Positions 2,342 through 42,635 of a DNA stretch of 64,000 nucleotides are shown here, piece after piece. The stretch is from positions 1-64,000 of IMG/VR virus record IMGVR_UViG_3300035703_000047; one strand, given 5' to 3'. The notes under the pieces are model-generated. The model was not told the DNA's origin. It searched no databases and saw nothing but the letters and a program-made list of their open reading frames with translations. The translations under genes and the position numbers were made by a program. How positions within the stretch are numbered: position 1 is the stretch's first letter; every line of letters begins with the position of its first letter. This stretch comes from a virus.

Positions 2342-2575
2342 TTACTTGTCCTTTTTCTTTTTCTTTTTATGCTTTCTTAGGAATTTACTATATTCTTTTG
2401 GTAGTCTTTTCATTAATCTAGATCTTCCATCCGGAGTTCCAATGATAGGATCAAATCCAGCAACAGGACCCTTTGGATCTGCAGAACCAGTAAATCCGCC
2501 GGTGCCTACAACCATACCTTCTTCCATTAAGTTACGAATAATATGAATTGCATTTTGAAGAATATGATCTTTCAT
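2342..2575 (-). CDS. Small basic protein with capsid-type GTGGFTGSA signature
   Basis: 77 residues. An amphipathic N-terminus (HILQNAIHIIRNLMEEG) is followed by GTGGFTGSADPKGPVAGFDP and a very basic tail ending HKKKKKKDK. The central segment closely matches residues 62-80 of the major capsid protein in this window (GTGGFSGSAAAGGPVAGFDP). LMEEG just before it resembles a prohead-protease site. This suggests a head-associated or packaged protein, with the Lys tail binding DNA; that is inference. It sits between the membrane coiled-coil gene and a DUF7207-like gene, overlapping the latter by ATGA. Confidence 0.75.
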   Translation of the reverse strand: MKDHILQNAIHIIRNLMEEGMVVGTGGFTGSADPKGPVAGFDPIIGTPDGRSRLMKRLPKEYSKFLRKHKKKKKKDK

Positions 2576-5410: not shown

Positions 5411-5725
5411 TCAATCAATCCATTCTAACTTTGATGGGTGATATCTCTGTGCGTTTTTAACTTTTACTGAACTTGTTGAGTTTGGATAAACATTATGCAC
5501 AATTGCACCTGGATATTCATCTTGCAGTTGTTCTGCAAGTTCATTTTTATCCATAATTTTACCTTCAACTTCCATACGATAAATCTTACCCTGCCAAACT
5601 ACATCAGCAAGAAAAGATTCTTTGACTGGTTCTGATTGTGTTTCTGAGCCATTGATATAGAGATTTCCGTTGAAATCTCCAGCAATGTTGATGGCTTCTG
5701 ATAAAAATTGATTAAAGGATTTCAT
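5411..5725 (-). CDS. Packaged-protein candidate with capsid-targeting-like leader
   Basis: The start is placed at 5725 so that the product begins MKSFNQFLSEAINIAG; an in-frame ATG two codons upstream (5731) is also possible. The leader resembles the T4 capsid-targeting sequence of internal head proteins, with a probable gp21 cleavage after LSE. Residues about 37-84 (VVWQGKIYRMEVEG to YPGAIVHNVYP) form a small domain that also ends the DUF5872 protein at 50219-51862. It probably enters the head with the DNA; its later action is unknown. Confidence 0.75.
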   Translation of the reverse strand: MKSFNQFLSEAINIAGDFNGNLYINGSETQSEPVKESFLADVVWQGKIYRMEVEGKIMDKNELAEQLQDEYPGAIVHNVYPNSTSSVKVKNAQRYHPSKLEWID

Positions 5726-6144
5726 TAGCATCCGTACCTATAAAGATATTTATGCAATAAGAGTGCATATTCACTACTATCATCCATATTTCCGAGAGCA
5801 AGATTGCATTTATGACACAGTAAACTTCTAACTTTACCCGTTTTGTGATTATGATCTACAACAGGTCTTTCTTTATAGTTTCCCTTATCTTTCAATTCTT
5901 TACCACAACAATCACATTTGGAACATTGTTCATTTAACATTTTTTTATAAAAGTCAGAATTTATTCCATATTTACTTATCAAATTGTATGTTCTCGTGTG
6001 TTCTAACATACAATTTCTACAAGCATAGGATAATCCTGTTGTTTGTTTTTTATTCTTAGTAAAAGATTCTGGAGGCAACCACTCTTTACACTTAGAACAA
6101 CAATATTCACCTTTATTATTTGGTTTTTTAGAATCACGAGCCAT
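5725..6144 (-). CDS. Endonuclease VII-like HNH/His-Me nuclease
   Basis: 139 residues. An N-terminal zinc-ribbon part (CCSKCKEWLPPESF, residues 15-28, and CRNC near 42) precedes a recombination endonuclease VII core: CDCCGKELK, then PVVDHNHKTGKVRSLLCHKCN with the DHNH metal/catalytic motif, and LALGNMD. T4 gp49 endonuclease VII resolves branched DNA. Many short phage members act as free-standing homing nucleases, so either role is possible. A late element lies in the loop of a 13-bp inverted repeat just upstream. Confidence 0.85.
   Translation of the reverse strand: MARDSKKPNNKGEYCCSKCKEWLPPESFTKNKKQTTGLSYACRNCMLEHTRTYNLISKYGINSDFYKKMLNEQCSKCDCCGKELKDKGNYKERPVVDHNHKTGKVRSLLCHKCNLALGNMDDSSEYALLLHKYLYRYGC
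5747..5754 (-). promoter_or_regulatory. Late promoter CATAAATA
   Basis: Located inside the 3' end of the endonuclease gene, 16-22 bases before the start of the packaged-protein candidate, which leaves a very short leader. Confidence 0.5.
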
Positions 6145-6190: not shown

Positions 6191-9100
6191 TTAACAATTC
6201 CAGGCTCTCAAACTTTTGTTAATTCTGGAATCAGGATCGTTAGCAGTTTTAGCAGAAGTAAGTTTCTCCTTCATGCCTTTCATTCTTGAACAAAATGATG
6301 CACGACGAGGATTACCAACTTTCTTTGAAGGTGCCTTCAAATCAGAACCAGGATTCTCGCGTTCGTAGGACTTACGGCCTTTTTCGTTTAATCCGCCTGA
6401 CTCAGACTTTCCCTCTTTCTTTGTCCATGCAGCAGACTCACCAAGTTTGGAAGCACGTCGTTTTGCCTTGTTTCCAGAACCTCTATCTCTGTTTTTACCC
6501 ACAACACTTGCCCAGTAATCTTTATTTTTTCTATTTGCTTCACCACCAATACTGCGTTCATCTTCTGGAGCACTTATTCCACCACGCTTTCTCACTGGTG
6601 GTTCTTCCTTTTGACGCCTTCTTTGTTTTTTGAAGTCATCCATGGTCATACCCTCTTCAATTTCAGTTTCTTCTTTAGAAACTACCATCATCATAGGATT
6701 TCTAGATCCCATTAATCTTGCCTTGGTTTTTACAAGATTAACTTTAGTTGGAAGATCTCTCATATCTTTTTTAGGGGTTTCTTCCTTCTCTTTTTCATCG
6801 CATCCACAACCCTCACTCATATTCGGATTAATCTCAATTTTATTTTTCTTTTTTGTCACATCAATAATTTTTTGTTGTGGTTCTTTGATTGATTGATCGT
6901 CAACTTCAAAAATAAATTCTTCTCTCCAATTGGAATACTCTTCCATTCTTGACTTAATAAGTGAAGATTTCAATGCTGGATTTCTTCTAGCTCTTTGACC
7001 TAGACTCATTCCAGTTTCTCTTTTGGGTTTACCAGTTTCACCTGCAGCAGGAAGTCTTTTTGTAGATGGAACTAGTTTCTTTCTCTCTGGACTTACAGGT
7101 AACTTTTTCCTTTCTGGAGTACCAGATAATTTTTTAGGAGTTGTGTCGGTCTTTTTTTCATCACTTTTTATAGAAACTCTCTCTGCAGATGTAGTTTCTG
7201 GTTTAGATTCAGATTTTACTGGTTCCTTCTTTTCGGATTTAGGAGGTTCAGATCCCTTCTCACCTTTTTTTTCTGTTGCTTTTTTATAAGCATACTTACC
7301 AAGAGCAACTCCAGTTTTAGCAACTGCTGAAACCAAATTTCCAACATTACTTACACCTGCAGATACTGCTTCAGTATCTTTTTTATCCCCAGCAACTTTT
7401 ATAGGTTTACTCCAAGCAGACTTAATATCCCCTTTCAGTTCAGATCTTCTTTTTTTCCTAGACTGTTCCCTTTCTTTTATCTGACTAATTTTTTCCTTTT
7501 CCTTTCTCTCCAATTCTTTTTGTCTTTCTTTAGATTTACTTTGTTTTGCCTTTTCTTCCTCTTTTGATTTTCTGGTTTCCTCCTTTTTTCTTTCCTGTTC
7601 GGATTTCTTTTGTTCCCTCTCTTTTTTACTCTTCTCAGTATAACTGAGTCTTTCGCGTTGTCTTTCAGTTCTAGCAGCTTCTTTTTCCTTTTCAGCCTCT
7701 CTTGCAATTCTTGCAGCCTTTACTCTACCAGCAGCAGAAGTTCTTGCAGCTCTTTCAGTTGCAGTGTTTCTGGTCTTTACTTCGTCTTTTGCTTTTTCTT
7801 TTTTTGTCTTCTCTTTATCTTCCTTTGGAGTTTCTTTTTCCTTGACTTCATCTCTCATCATCTTATTAGCTTTAGTAGCTACTTTAGCTTGATGAAGTCT
7901 ATCTTGCTGCTTTTTTGAGCGTTCTTCTCTCCTGGCTTTTGCAGCCATAAGTTGTGCATCAGAAACTTCTAGAAGAATTCTATCTACTAAACACAACTCC
8001 TCTTTAGTATCTTCTTTCTTTTCAGGAAGTCCTTCATGTTTTGTCTTTGCAAAATCTCTTGCAGCTTTCTTAGACATGCCAGATGCAGCCTTTGCAACTT
8101 CGGGAGATGCGGGAGTCCCACCTTTCTTCGCGGCATAAACCATACCCATAAATCTTTGTTGTGCTCTACTTAGAGACTTTTCTTCAAGATATCCTTCACC
8201 CATTGCTTTTTGCTTGCGGAGTTTCTTGGGATTCTTCGTCTTATCTGCTGAGTAGTTACTATCATCACCCTCAGGGTCCATAGAACTGCGATGTCTTGTT
8301 CTTCTTTCTTCATCATCCAGTTTTGCACGGTTGGACTTTGCCTCATCTGGAGAATATGTTCTACCACTGTTGTACCATTCTTTACCTACATGACCTCTCT
8401 TCTTAGCATCGGCAGAGGCTTCTCTACGCTTGAGTTTTCTGCGGTTTGCTTTGAAGTCCTTCATGGACATTCCTTCATCAAGATCGTTTTCCTCTTTCTG
8501 AACACGAAACTTTCCACCAGTTTCCTTATGAGTATCAGAAAGTTCATCAGCTCTATCATGAGCATACTTTCTACTCTTTACTGGTTTGCCAATTTTCTTT
8601 TCTTTCTTACCATCGTGAGAACCATATACCTGATATGGCATTTCCTCAATGTATTCCTCTTTAGTTACAAGTCCAATCGGATTTTTATTTTTCTTTGTAA
8701 TTTTATCATGAGCTTTAATAGAAATCTCTTGATAATCTGCATAAGTTTTACCTGCAGATGGACCTTCTCTACCAGGACTTTTTGCAGCCTTACCACCTTT
8801 TTCTTTTCTTTCCTCAGCTCTTTCTCTTGCAGCAACCTTTCTCATCTCACGACGATACTCTTTATCCTCTTCAACCATTTCACCTTCTGGTTCAAAGTGA
8901 GCAACCTGAGTGGTTTTTACACTTGGTTTAGAAGCTCCCTTAAATGCTGGAAATCCACCCGGATATGATTTGAGAACAGGACTATCAAGTTTTTTTCTAG
9001 TCTTATTCAAAACATCATCATCTCCATGGTATCCTTGTCTTTGATCCCCTACTACTCTTCTCGCTCTATCACCAATATCACTCTCGTCAATCTGTTCGAC

Positions 9101-9523
9101 ATCTTCTTTCATTTTTTCTCTTCTAGCCTTTGACTTCGCAAGAATTCTCTCACGAGCAGCTTCCTGTTCAGACTTGGGGATATTAAACATATCTCTATCA
9201 GTCTTCAGTCTTTCCTGAGGGGGAATGACTTTAGCTCTAACTTTTCTACGATTTAAAAGATACTTATCAGACTTATCGTGATCTCCGTCGTTGTCAATAT
9301 CCTTATCTTCCTGACCTACTGGGTCAAGAGCTTCTTCTACTTTCTTTTTCTTGTCAGCAGCAATCGCAGCACCAACAGTAGCTCTTCTCTTCTTCAAATA
9401 GCTATCGGAAGAATCCGAATCACCATCATTATCCACGTCGTCATCTTCTTGACCGACTGGATCTAATTTTTTAGATGCTTTAGCTTCTGCAACAATACGC
9501 GAAAATTCTTCCCAACTAGCCAT
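6191..9523 (-). CDS. Large charged virion protein with DUF6321 C-terminus
   Basis: 1110 residues, extremely rich in Lys/Glu/Arg. Two copies of a DPVGQED-DxDNDGDxDxSDxYL motif (near residues 21 and 66) look like Ca2+-binding loops. Residues about 530-720 are a long KE-rich helix or coiled coil. Two related helices are seen (EGMSMKDFKANRRKLKRRE and EGMTMDDFKKQRRRQKEE). The C-terminal 90 residues (AAWTKKEGKSESGG, NEKGRKSYERENPGSDLK, SRINKSLRAWNC) are the DUF6321 signature. The N-terminus MASWEEFSRIVAEA may be a cleavable head leader. It has its own late element. A role as an internal head or long structural protein is inferred. Confidence 0.85.
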   Translation of the reverse strand: MASWEEFSRIVAEAKASKKLDPVGQEDDDVDNDGDSDSSDSYLKKRRATVGAAIAADKKKKVEEALDPVGQEDKDIDNDGDHDKSDKYLLNRRKVRAKVIPPQERLKTDRDMFNIPKSEQEAARERILAKSKARREKMKEDVEQIDESDIGDRARRVVGDQRQGYHGDDDVLNKTRKKLDSPVLKSYPGGFPAFKGASKPSVKTTQVAHFEPEGEMVEEDKEYRREMRKVAARERAEERKEKGGKAAKSPGREGPSAGKTYADYQEISIKAHDKITKKNKNPIGLVTKEEYIEEMPYQVYGSHDGKKEKKIGKPVKSRKYAHDRADELSDTHKETGGKFRVQKEENDLDEGMSMKDFKANRRKLKRREASADAKKRGHVGKEWYNSGRTYSPDEAKSNRAKLDDEERRTRHRSSMDPEGDDSNYSADKTKNPKKLRKQKAMGEGYLEEKSLSRAQQRFMGMVYAAKKGGTPASPEVAKAASGMSKKAARDFAKTKHEGLPEKKEDTKEELCLVDRILLEVSDAQLMAAKARREERSKKQQDRLHQAKVATKANKMMRDEVKEKETPKEDKEKTKKEKAKDEVKTRNTATERAARTSAAGRVKAARIAREAEKEKEAARTERQRERLSYTEKSKKEREQKKSEQERKKEETRKSKEEEKAKQSKSKERQKELERKEKEKISQIKEREQSRKKRRSELKGDIKSAWSKPIKVAGDKKDTEAVSAGVSNVGNLVSAVAKTGVALGKYAYKKATEKKGEKGSEPPKSEKKEPVKSESKPETTSAERVSIKSDEKKTDTTPKKLSGTPERKKLPVSPERKKLVPSTKRLPAAGETGKPKRETGMSLGQRARRNPALKSSLIKSRMEEYSNWREEFIFEVDDQSIKEPQQKIIDVTKKKNKIEINPNMSEGCGCDEKEKEETPKKDMRDLPTKVNLVKTKARLMGSRNPMMMVVSKEETEIEEGMTMDDFKKQRRRQKEEPPVRKRGGISAPEDERSIGGEANRKNKDYWASVVGKNRDRGSGNKAKRRASKLGESAAWTKKEGKSESGGLNEKGRKSYERENPGSDLKAPSKKVGNPRRASFCSRMKGMKEKLTSAKTANDPDSRINKSLRAWNC

Positions 9524-9548: not shown

Positions 9549-10802
9549 TTATTTATTCTTTTTGCCCTTACGGAATTTATCGTAAATGGAAGCAATCTTA
9601 ACACCAGTATAACTCTTAACCTCTTGACCTGGAGTTAATGACTGAACATAGTCTCTATACTCATCTGTACCAATCTCATGGGGATTCTCAACAAGATCTT
9701 TCAACCACGACTTAAACATTATACCGTCTTCAGTAACACAAATAACATAATTTGTTCCCCTACGAATAACTTCTCCAGTCAACCCTGTATTCATATTTTC
9801 GACAAGATTACCAACCCCATAAATGTGATCTACAAGATACGCATCTCTCATACCTTCTTCATCGAGTTTAGGAGCAACCTCCCATACTTCAGTCTCCTCA
9901 CTCACATTCATAGATCTACGAAGGACATTAAAGAGTTCCATTTTTTCCATGTTAGTAAGAGTATCTGGAACACCCTTTGCAAACTTCACAAAATTACCTT
10001 CCGCTGCAGCCAAACGAAGTTTAGATGCAGACATTCCAGTTACATCATCAGAGTCTGGATCTCTATCTCCTGCAGAAACTACTTCTAGTTGATCATAGTT
10101 ATAGAGTTCACCATTATACTTGTGACTTAAACCTTGAAACTCACTAAGTCTATCAGCACCAACCATAATGATCATGTTCTTATGACCTTCTTCATTTGAA
10201 CCAGTCAGTACATTGAAAATTGTCTTAGAACCCTTGTCATCAATAATACTATCCGCATAATCAGGGAACATTTGACGCATGTAAGAAATCTTCATCTGTG
10301 GAGTTAAAGGATTCTTCTTTGCGTCTTGTGAACGAGATGGGTAGATTCTTAGTTCATAACCTCTCTTTTCCGCTTCTTTTGCAGCTCTCTTTAAAAGTTT
10401 TTCGTGTCCAACTGTCGGTGGATTAAATCTACCAAATACTACTACAACTCCAGGTGTTTCTGGAACTGGCATTTCTGCAGGAACTTGTTCTTGAGAAGAT
10501 TGTTGTTCTGGTGGAACTTGTTGTGTAGTTTGTTGAGTAGGTTCTTGTGTAACATCCTGTTGTGTTTGTTGTGCAACTTGTGGTTGTGCTGCAGGTGTTT
10601 GTGGTTGACTTGGAGAGTCCTTTTGACCTGGGGTATTATCACTACCAAAAAATTTCAGTTTACCAGCCACGGTTTTAGCAACAAATTCGCCTTGCTTATC
10701 GTACCATCCTCCATGGCCATCTCCAGTCAAACCAAGTCTTTTGGCTTCGGAAGATGCAGAGGTTTCTCTGGCTTCGATGAGGAAGTTACTAAAATTTTTC
10801 AT
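9549..10802 (-). CDS. Nucleotidyltransferase (cytidylyltransferase-like) with capsid-targeting-like leader
   Basis: 417 residues. The leader MKNFSNFLIEARE matches the T4 internal-protein targeting form, with likely cleavage after LIE. A Gln/Pro-rich linker occupies about residues 60-118. The nucleotidyltransferase core follows: VVVVFGRFNPPTVGHEKLL carries the (H/T)xGH-type nucleotide-binding motif, and TGMSASKLRLAAAEG corresponds to the ISSTxxR motif. The C-terminal 110 residues are not recognised. The family transfers nucleotidyl groups to small phosphates (NMN, phosphopantetheine or sugar alcohol phosphates); the substrate cannot be told. Late element upstream. Confidence 0.85.
   Translation of the reverse strand: MKNFSNFLIEARETSASSEAKRLGLTGDGHGGWYDKQGEFVAKTVAGKLKFFGSDNTPGQKDSPSQPQTPAAQPQVAQQTQQDVTQEPTQQTTQQVPPEQQSSQEQVPAEMPVPETPGVVVVFGRFNPPTVGHEKLLKRAAKEAEKRGYELRIYPSRSQDAKKNPLTPQMKISYMRQMFPDYADSIIDDKGSKTIFNVLTGSNEEGHKNMIIMVGADRLSEFQGLSHKYNGELYNYDQLEVVSAGDRDPDSDDVTGMSASKLRLAAAEGNFVKFAKGVPDTLTNMEKMELFNVLRRSMNVSEETEVWEVAPKLDEEGMRDAYLVDHIYGVGNLVENMNTGLTGEVIRRGTNYVICVTEDGIMFKSWLKDLVENPHEIGTDEYRDYVQSLTPGQEVKSYTGVKIASIYDKFRKGKKNK
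9550..9557 (-). promoter_or_regulatory. Late promoter AATAAATA
   Basis: 27 bases upstream of the 1110-residue DUF6321 gene, overlapping the stop of the nucleotidyltransferase gene. Confidence 0.65.
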
Positions 10803-10835: not shown

Positions 10836-10843
10836 TATTTATT
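10836..10843 (-). promoter_or_regulatory. Late promoter AATAAATA
   Basis: 34 bases upstream of the nucleotidyltransferase gene, overlapping the 3' end of the preceding gene. Confidence 0.65.
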
Positions 10844-39261: not shown

Positions 39262-40671
39262 TCACATAAGGTTGGCAACCTTGACTCTTCTATAGTAACG
39301 GTTTGCATTGAGGCGGAGTCTTCCGAGTCCCTGATCGGTTCCTTCTGCAAATGGGTTGGCAACAATACCATAACGGGTCTTGAAGCCAATTTTTGGTTGG
39401 AAGGTATCCTGACCGACGGCACGAACCATCTGGAGAGGAACATATGGGCAGTAGAAGATACCAGCGTCATATGCGCTAGAACCCTTGTAACCTACAACGT
39501 AGTACTGGTCAGCACCAGTTCCACCGCCATTGTAACCAGCAGCATATGGGTCAATGTAGACTCTATACTTGCCTTGGAGAACACCAGCGAAGGTGTTACC
39601 AGTGTCATCAACGTTAAGATTAGCGTTGAGTGCAGGAGTGTAGTCAAGTACACCAGCCATAGTTAGAGCAGAAGCAACGTCTGCAGAACAGATGATGGTG
39701 TTGCCCTTTCCTCTACGAGTTCTTTGTGCGATTGCGTTAGCATCACGCTCGATTTGGAAGAGTAGACCCTTGAACTTCTCAACGGACCAACGACCGTTTG
39801 AATCAACGTCAAGGTCAAATACACCCTGAGTTGCGGTATTTGCAGTAGCACCTTGCTCGGCAACCTTGTAGATAGTTCTGATGACTTCTCTGTTGATCTC
39901 AGCGAGGATCTCAGTAGAAAGAAGGTTAGCAAGTTCTGCTTCTGCATTTAGACCGTGGATCGCCTTGAGGTCTTGAGCAAGCTCTAGGGAATACTCAGCC
40001 TTGAGGGCGCGTGACTTAGCAGTTACGGTGACTTTCTCGATTGAGAATGCCATCTCGTTGAAGAAGTTACCAGCAGAATCTCCGAGAGCCTCGGAATCGC
40101 CAGTGGTCATACCCTGACCAACGTTATATGGTGATGGGTTGGTGGTAGCGGTTCCAACTGGGTTGAGAAGACCTGGATTGCTTCCATCCTGATTAGTTGT
40201 ACCGAAACCAACTAGACCATCGGAGAAACCGTTGGAAAGGTTACGGCTGTTGTTCTGACCAGAGAAAGTGGTATCTACTTCATTGAAGAAGGTCTCATCT
40301 CCACTCTGACCGTTGTAACGGGAACGCATTGCGAAGATGAGTCCAGTAGGGCCAGACATTGGTTGAACGCCACAGATGTCATAAGCAATGAGGTTAGGCA
40401 TTGCACGACGAATGAGGCTGATTAGAACTGGGTCGAAACCAGCAACTGGACCACCAGCAGCAGCGGAACCAGAGAATCCACCAGTACCAGCAGAGTTGGT
40501 TGGGGAAGCTTCGCCAAGGAACTCAGCAGACTCGCGGAGTTCTCTCTCTTGGTTCTCTAGAAGTTGTGCAGTAACTGCACGTCTGTGGGAATCTTTGATA
40601 TTGCCTAGACCATCAAAGTCTAGAACTGGAGCCCACTTCTCCATTAAATGTTGTGAATTAATTCCGTCCAT
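39262..40671 (-). CDS. 23: Major capsid protein, T4 gp23-like
   Basis: 469 residues. LMEKWAPVLDFDGLGNIKD at the start, RRAMPNLIAYDICGVQPMSG and IDPYAAGYNGG later are T4 gp23 signatures. A prohead-protease site is visible at FLGE|ASPTN (after residue 54), matching (I/L)xE cleavage; GTGGFSGSAAAGGPVAGFDP follows. Forms the hexameric shell. No gp24 is seen, so vertices probably use gp23. Ends at a strong terminator. Confidence 0.97.
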   Translation of the reverse strand: MDGINSQHLMEKWAPVLDFDGLGNIKDSHRRAVTAQLLENQERELRESAEFLGEASPTNSAGTGGFSGSAAAGGPVAGFDPVLISLIRRAMPNLIAYDICGVQPMSGPTGLIFAMRSRYNGQSGDETFFNEVDTTFSGQNNSRNLSNGFSDGLVGFGTTNQDGSNPGLLNPVGTATTNPSPYNVGQGMTTGDSEALGDSAGNFFNEMAFSIEKVTVTAKSRALKAEYSLELAQDLKAIHGLNAEAELANLLSTEILAEINREVIRTIYKVAEQGATANTATQGVFDLDVDSNGRWSVEKFKGLLFQIERDANAIAQRTRRGKGNTIICSADVASALTMAGVLDYTPALNANLNVDDTGNTFAGVLQGKYRVYIDPYAAGYNGGGTGADQYYVVGYKGSSAYDAGIFYCPYVPLQMVRAVGQDTFQPKIGFKTRYGIVANPFAEGTDQGLGRLRLNANRYYRRVKVANLM

Positions 40672-41984: not shown

Positions 41985-42635
41985 TTATAGATTTGACAGA
42001 AACTCTTGGAACAGATTTAACTTCTGTTCATCAAGTCTTCTCTGGTCTATAAGTGTATTTATTCTTTTTTGGGTTCTTTCTGCAAGTTGTTCACGAAGGA
42101 TTCCTCCATCCCAAACCCACTCTTTGCCTTCCATAATTCCAGAAACAAAAGCATCTGGAGCGGAAGGATCAGCAACGATATCAGCTGCAGTAGCAAGCAT
42201 GAAATCTTCACCGACAATTTTGTGTCCTTCACTAGTTGTTTGTAGAGAACCTACACCACGAGAAGAAACACCAAGCATTACGCCCTCATCCAAAAGGGAG
42301 GATGCAATCTTACCCATAGGAGTATTAAGAATTTGTGCTTTACCTTTGAAGTTATTACCTTCCTGAACTAGTGAAGTAATCTTATGCGAAACGCGATCAA
42401 GATTTACTGTTGGGCCATCTGGATGGCCAAGTTCTCCAAGAGCACGACCTTTTTGAACAAACTGCTCATTGTAACGATCTACTTCACGGGAAAGAACATT
42501 AATTGGATACATTCTTCCATTGCGATTTTTAATTTCTCCTTGGAGAAATACGCCTTCAATATAGAGTTTTTTATTAACACCTTTTCCTTCGGTGATAATC
42601 TTTACATTCGTTACTTCTTCGGTAATTAGTTTCAT
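41985..42635 (-). CDS. 21: Prohead protease, T4 gp21-like
   Basis: 216 residues (T4 212). ELGHPDGPTVNLDRVSHKIT carries the catalytic His and GVMLGVSSRGVGSL the catalytic Ser. It matures gp23 and core proteins by cutting after (I/L)xE. Adjacent to gp22 and gp20 as in T4. Confidence 0.94.
   Translation of the reverse strand: MKLITEEVTNVKIITEGKGVNKKLYIEGVFLQGEIKNRNGRMYPINVLSREVDRYNEQFVQKGRALGELGHPDGPTVNLDRVSHKITSLVQEGNNFKGKAQILNTPMGKIASSLLDEGVMLGVSSRGVGSLQTTSEGHKIVGEDFMLATAADIVADPSAPDAFVSGIMEGKEWVWDGGILREQLAERTQKRINTLIDQRRLDEQKLNLFQEFLSNL

Follow-up and report, generated by a model that had tools for sequence, protein, structure and literature searches.

A T4-type capsid-targeting leader probably packages a nucleotidyltransferase into the head of a T4-like cyanophage

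Introduction

Why should a nucleotidyltransferase of a T4-like cyanophage start with a peptide that looks like the capsid-targeting leader of the T4 internal head proteins? An earlier note on this DNA proposed that the enzyme is brought into the phage head by this leader and could act in the host before any phage transcription. The internal proteins (IPs) of T4 are small non-enzymes, of which IPI* inhibits a restriction enzyme. T4 also carries Alt in its head, an injected ADP-ribosyltransferase that acts before transcription. The alt gene is absent from cyanomyoviruses (PMC2984593).

The presence of the nucleotidyltransferase family in cyanophage virions is already known and has been published from 2010 on. 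Proteome studies of cyanophage particles repeatedly report kinases and SAM lyases as well as NMNAT-like and nuclease-like proteins, with the choice between cargo and contaminant undecided. A short conserved N-terminal tag would decide this choice and would explain the entry of the virion enzymes.

Results

The DNA analyzed is an 88,985-base IMG/VR virus contig, bases 1-64000 of which are called the window here. It was assigned to a T4-like cyanophage, as gp23, gp21, portal, sheath, terminase, MazG, cobS, and hsp20-like genes were all found. Two genes with a leader, those for the nucleotidyltransferase (P0001) and for a second protein (P0002), lie on the minus strand (Table 1), and the plus strand at these coordinates is not open. 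The translated products read MKNFSNFLIEARETSASSEAKRLGLTGDGHGGWYD and MKSFNQFLSEAINIAGD at their N-termini, with both leaders as previously described; an alternative in-frame ATG two codons upstream is possible for P0002.

Table 1. Positions of the leader genes and related features in the window (a slash marks a presumed or predicted cut)
Feature	Position	Strand	Remarks
Late promoter of T4/cyanophage type, AATAAATA	10836..10843	-	41 nt upstream of the P0001 start codon
Nucleotidyltransferase gene P0001, 417 aa	9549..10802	-	Leader, mini-domain, disordered linker, adenylyltransferase domain, and small beta domain
P0001 leader, codons 1-10, MKNFSNFLIE	10773..10802	-	Predicted gp21 cut after Glu10, before Ala11
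P0001 mini-domain, residues 14-51, LGLxxDGHGGWxDxxGxxVAKTxxGKLxFF	10650..10763	-	Also present in kinases and in a large nuclease-like protein from virions of other cyanophages
P0001 Q/P/E-rich disordered linker, residues 54-116	10455..10643	-	pLDDT mostly <50; variable among homologues
P0001 adenylyltransferase (NadD/NMNAT-like) domain, residues 118-300	9903..10451	-	Motifs FGRFNPPTVGH, SRSQDxxKNP, GADR, and SASKLR intact
P0001 C-terminal small all-beta domain, residues 328-373	9684..9821	-	From AF2 model; kept in L470, a relative without the catalytic domain
DUF6321 protein	6191..9523	-	Directly downstream of P0001; own late promoter at 9550-9557
Late promoter, CATAAATA	5747..5754	-	29 nt upstream of P0002
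P0002, 104 aa, phrog_1742	5411..5725	-	Leader MKSFNQFLSE/A
Major capsid protein gp23	39262..40671	-	Presumed maturation site SAEFLGE/ASPTN, residues 51-55, codons at about 40507-40521
Prohead protease gp21 homologue	41985..42635	-	72% identical to the S-SCSM1_40 prohead protease; expected to cut the leader

The P0001 leader resembles those of T4 IPI, IPII, and IPIII in its length of 10 residues and in having Lys2, an aromatic residue at position 4, Phe7, an aliphatic residue at position 8, and Glu10, followed by Ala. The T4 start cited for comparison in the earlier note, MKTYQEFIAEA, was read from NC_000866 for ipII and ipIII. The gp23 site FLGE/A was likewise found, in the minus-strand capsid product, and is of the same FLxE/A type as the leader. 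As for the T4 IPs, the phage itself encodes the gp21 protease, together with a capsid protein that has this kind of cut site. Separately, the segment that directly follows the gp23 cut site shares a GFTGSA..GPVAGFDP stretch (73% over 22 aa) with a small protein at 2342-2575 (minus strand), whose homologues S-SCSM1_97 and S-CREM2 gp160 are virion proteins detected by mass spectrometry (MS).

When searched as DNA, MKxFxxFLxEA had just two matches in the 88,985-base contig, at these two starts, and none in the reversed control. A pattern widened to include T4 gave 12 matches in six phage records (this contig 2, Syn9 1, T4 3, S-SZBM1 1, S-CREM2 3, and S-SCSM1 2) and none in the controls; a still looser pattern starts to catch chance matches within genes and was left out of all claims. 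The T4 matches were ipII, ipIII, and gene 61.1, the last of which (NC_000866 18966-19130) encodes a 54-aa protein of unknown function with the capsid-targeting-like start MKTFKEFIKE. With residue-shuffled N-termini, 0.09 leader matches per genome were expected for S-CREM2 and 0.17 for S-SCSM1, compared to 4 and 2 observed ATG-started ORFs. Reversed controls and shuffled N-termini together rule out a chance origin of the motif. An occurrence beyond T4-like phages was also considered and rejected, because terminase, sheath, and tube genes identified three loci from a frequently seen leader family of 185 aa as T4-like. In the open literature, we found no mention of the leader in cyanophages, and the one paper there that mentions both capsid targeting and cyanophage, a T4 review, does the latter only in a reference title.

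A scan of IMG/VR with the leader pattern is biased toward the motif; homologues of P0001 were re-fetched with catalytic-site peptides only. The leader was conserved in 77 of the 79 complete N-termini obtained in this leader-blind manner, so the motif was not seen merely because it was searched for. Among these 77, Lys2 was kept in 75, Phe, Tyr, or Leu at position 4 in 77, Phe7 in 77, Glu10 in 77, and Ala11 in 69, with Leu, Ile, Phe, or Val at position 8; positions 4, 7, 8, and 10 form part of the rule by which leaders were recognized, yet just 2 of the 79 N-termini failed it. Positions 3, 5, 6, and 9 varied freely. In an alignment of 61 full-length proteins, Phe7 and Glu10 were invariant like the active site, and the linker was not. 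Mutagenesis of T4 IPIII assigned residues 4 and 7 to targeting and residues 8 and 10 to processing (PMC9026906). The cyanophage leaders conserve exactly these mapped positions, and all four determinants (aromatic 4, Phe7, aliphatic 8, and Glu10) are present in P0001. Leaderless homologues are known from S-RSM4, S-PM2, and RaK2; packaging is therefore not universal and the leader is a separable module. For P0002, MKSFNQFL was among the probes of the homologue search and, thus, leader conservation in its homologues is not independent.

In PMC2984593, NATAAATA is described as the promoter of cyanophage late genes. Among the genes tabulated for the window, this motif preceded 10 of the 19 of virion type and none of the 16 of replication or early type (hypergeometric P about 5e-4). 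It was found within 60 nt upstream in 32 of the 77 P0001 homologues, compared to a background of 2.8%. Judging by its promoter motif, P0001 is late-expressed, as the T4 IPs are. For a metabolic enzyme synthesized only late, a role as cargo destined for the next host would be the most plausible. Segments homologous to the DUF6321 protein downstream of P0001 occur in the virion proteins S-SCSM1_29, _92, and _93, and its last 85 aa, the DUF6321 part, are 91% identical to the end of the differently built S-SCSM1_29. These matches indicate that DUF6321 is a shuffled domain of virion proteins.

P0001 belongs to the phrog_395/T4-GC190 family of cyanophage citidylyltransferases by both profile match and synteny. 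It matched phrog_395 cytidyltransferase with E 9.5e-96 and Pfam CTP_transf_like with E 1e-6, and its architecture was also derived from an AF2 model. In tblastn, it matched S-SM1 SSM1_190, which is GC190. The virion-associated proteins S-SM1 GC190, S-SCSM1 ORF91, S-SZBM1_140, and S-CREM2 ORF154, described as citidylyltransferase or NMNAT-like, are of the same family, and cyanomyovirus phrog_395 proteins that MS places in virions share with P0001 a similar locus near mazG and primase/nrd genes.

In a fold comparison, NadD/NMNAT proteins were the best matches (E 7e-6, TM about 0.6 by target length) and PPAT came next, so a cytidylyltransferase reading is not favored. The fold and the (T/H)xGH and SxSxxR motifs are those of bacterial NadD/NMNAT, and the catalytic motifs are intact, as an NMN/NaMN adenylyltransferase would have them. 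Unlike the bacterial enzymes, with which identity is about 15%, P0001 adds the leader, mini-domain, linker, and C-terminal domain. Its scores against the NCBIfam NadD/NadR equivalogs were far below the cut-offs (17.7 bits against 112.45 and 19.1 against 341.15), and it is therefore filed merely as NMNAT-like. A profile search of the sequences of solved structures gave no match. The sequence does not fix the substrate, for which NMN or NaMN is the best guess. No nicotinamide phosphoribosyltransferase (PF04095) and no PnuC gene were found in seven related records, which include complete relatives, this contig being incomplete; a NARP2-type NAD reconstitution (Nampt plus NMNAT) does not fit this absence of PF04095.

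Other arrangements of these domains were seen. Distant marine phages have fusions of leader, nucleotidyltransferase, and a P-loop kinase that is Zeta_toxin/AAA_33-like (L059:2500-3809, minus strand; and L015:11230-12507, minus strand). A fusion of this kind also occurs in L049, and the layout resembles that of NadR. DUF6267 ligase-like proteins with a KWDGAP motif carry the leader in some phages (L031, 402 aa; L269, 403 aa). In S-SZBM1, S-RSM4, and S-PM2, leaderless DUF6267 forms lie beside the nucleotidyltransferase or are joined to it in a fusion.

The enzyme could be packaged by its leader and still have its main job in the head, as a core or DNA-binding internal protein built on a reused nucleotidyltransferase fold, with catalysis a side function or dispensable. 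Such a non-catalytic role is still considered because some loci have a dead active site or no catalytic domain. At the same locus in L495 (2643-3539), L501 (3453-4343), and L511 (3414-4346), leader and mini-domain are kept and FDKFDDEE replaces FGRFNPPTVGH; these products are possible packaged pseudoenzymes. A 196-aa form in L470 (1943-2533) and L471 (530-1120) keeps leader, mini-domain, and C-terminal domain without the catalytic domain. Against this role, the motifs GRFNPPxxGH, SxSxDxxKNP, GxDR, and SASxxR, all intact in P0001, were invariant in ten diverse members aligned and invariant or nearly so across 61 full-length members, suggesting that catalysis is under selection in most phages, this one included. 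We consider a main role in the head unlikely for P0001 and prefer that of a packaged, working enzyme.

The mini-domain of P0001 folds confidently in the AF2 model. Its profile, run against every ORF of S-CREM2 and of S-SCSM1, matched gp12, gp14 (twice), and ORF91 and no others; all three are virion proteins. Further matches were S-CRM01 g128 and g130, S-PRM1, and a protein of Xanthomonas phage X1. The X1 protein (L346:2980-3507), from a phage whose host is not a cyanobacterium, joins a leader-like MSFETYLKES to the mini-domain. Altogether, 121 phage records contain the mini-domain, at a total of 169 places, and a fold search against solved structures returned nothing significant. By these searches, it is a new domain of ~40 aa that is common to several cargoes.

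Orthologues of P0001 have been detected by MS in the purified virions of four phages, namely S-SM1 (citidylyltransferase T4-GC190; Sullivan et al. 2010; PMC3037559), S-SCSM1 (ORF91; PMC9602691), S-CREM2 (ORF154, with 3 unique peptides; PMC10665884), and S-SZBM1 (S-SZBM1_140, with 2 peptides; PMC9146016). Their leaders read MKKFSAFLNE/A (SSM1_190), MKSFLQFLKE/A, MKNFSSFLTE/A, and MRFRQFIIE/A, respectively, the last being one residue shorter. No peptide from a cut N-terminus is published in the accessible literature. The mature N-terminal peptides predicted are AAESGASVQAK for S-SCSM1 ORF91 (against tryptic EAAESGASVQAK), ADEKQQQAPK for S-CREM2 ORF154, and AERSFAAK for S-SM1. S-CBWM1 is reportedly also cited in these proteome papers regarding virion presence of the family.

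The leader rule was then applied at the protein level to the 219 CDS of S-CREM2, of which 52 were detected by MS. All five leader CDS (the SAM lyase gp6, the kinase gp14, the cytidylyltransferase gp154, and gp13 and gp136 of unknown function) were in the virion set (P=6.5e-4, or 4e-5 without the classical structural proteins). Virion protein gp12 of S-CREM2, annotated as a Cas9-like nuclease, has a leader-like RFASFMAEA at residue 18; a Pfam search recognized nothing in it and, therefore, "Cas9" is the depositors' word. In S-SCSM1, 2 of 282 CDS have a leader, ORF91, which was detected, and the P0002 homologue ORF30, which is not marked as detected in the virion proteome. The freshwater phage S-CRM01 has consecutive leaders or leader-like starts in g127-g131 (L347:4249-8827), encoding a nucleotidyltransferase, a mini-domain protein, a small protein, a kinase, and a small protein, which is a possible injected-cargo cassette.

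Another possible explanation for the virion data is that P0001 and its relatives are abundant late cytoplasmic enzymes that co-purify with virions, the leader doing an unrelated job. The authors of two of the proteome papers left cargo or contaminant open and noted that CsCl-purified particles can hold contaminants and that the enzyme might co-purify; the few peptides from S-CREM2 and S-SZBM1 would fit this. However, detection came from four separate phages in separate studies, the whole S-CREM2 leader set was in virions, and the leader mirrors the mapped head-targeting signal residue by residue, which together make co-purification very unlikely. A place in the tail or on the outer surface, on which whole-virion MS is silent and which the label "tail fiber protein" of a homologue in the RB11-B record would suit, is the least probable reading of all, since the leader ends in a gp21-type site also present in the capsid protein, in T4 this leader belongs to internal head proteins, and no tail domain was found in P0001 by profile matches or in the AF2 model.

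Discussion

The mapped T4 residues, the near-universal leader, the late promoter, and the orthologues detected by MS in four phages' virions strongly support the proposal that the nucleotidyltransferase is packaged by means of its leader, and we regard this as probable. P0001 would be a late-made internal head protein of a T4-like cyanophage. Phe4 and Phe7 of its leader would dock it into the prohead core, and gp21 would cut after Glu10, freeing an enzyme that remains in the head. A location inside the head is very probable and cutting of the leader is quite probable. The freed enzyme would exit the head together with the DNA, and its injection into the host is likely, if less so. In the host, the catalytic domain may have NMN/NaMN adenylyltransferase activity and would then support NAD(P)+ from the earliest minutes of infection, ahead of phage transcription; we lean only slightly toward this activity, and a role against NAD-depleting defense is rather doubtful.

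Unlike the T4 IPs, the cargo proposed here is an enzyme of 417 aa with several domains, among which is a mini-domain not found in T4. The proposed role is closer to that of T4 Alt, which is also an injected enzyme carried in the head, but the fold and reaction differ. Earlier reports on phrog_395 proteins left the entry route or contaminant status open, and the accessible ones do not mention the leader. Three things appear new within the open literature: the T4-type leader as an explanation of virion presence, the connection of this leader to several further virion enzymes, and the mini-domain.

The tag, frequently accompanied by the mini-domain, would also bring a SAM lyase, a kinase, and a nuclease-like protein into the head in related phages. 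With somewhat better than even odds, T4-like cyanophages have a head-cargo code that is portable, in which a T4-type capsid-targeting sequence is in many cases joined to a "DGHGGW" mini-domain. With it they would load and inject a switchable set of enzymes, including those of NMNAT-like, SAM lyase, and Ser/Thr kinase type and a large nuclease-like protein, from late cassettes such as S-CRM01 g127-g131 and S-CREM2 gp12-gp15, and injected effectors could be predicted from sequence alone. By the leader rule, one could then predict the phage proteins that accompany the DNA into ocean cyanobacteria ahead of transcription, and such proteins could set host metabolism or disarm defenses. The presence of the leader on several virion enzymes suggests that these phages inject a ready-made set of enzymes with their DNA.
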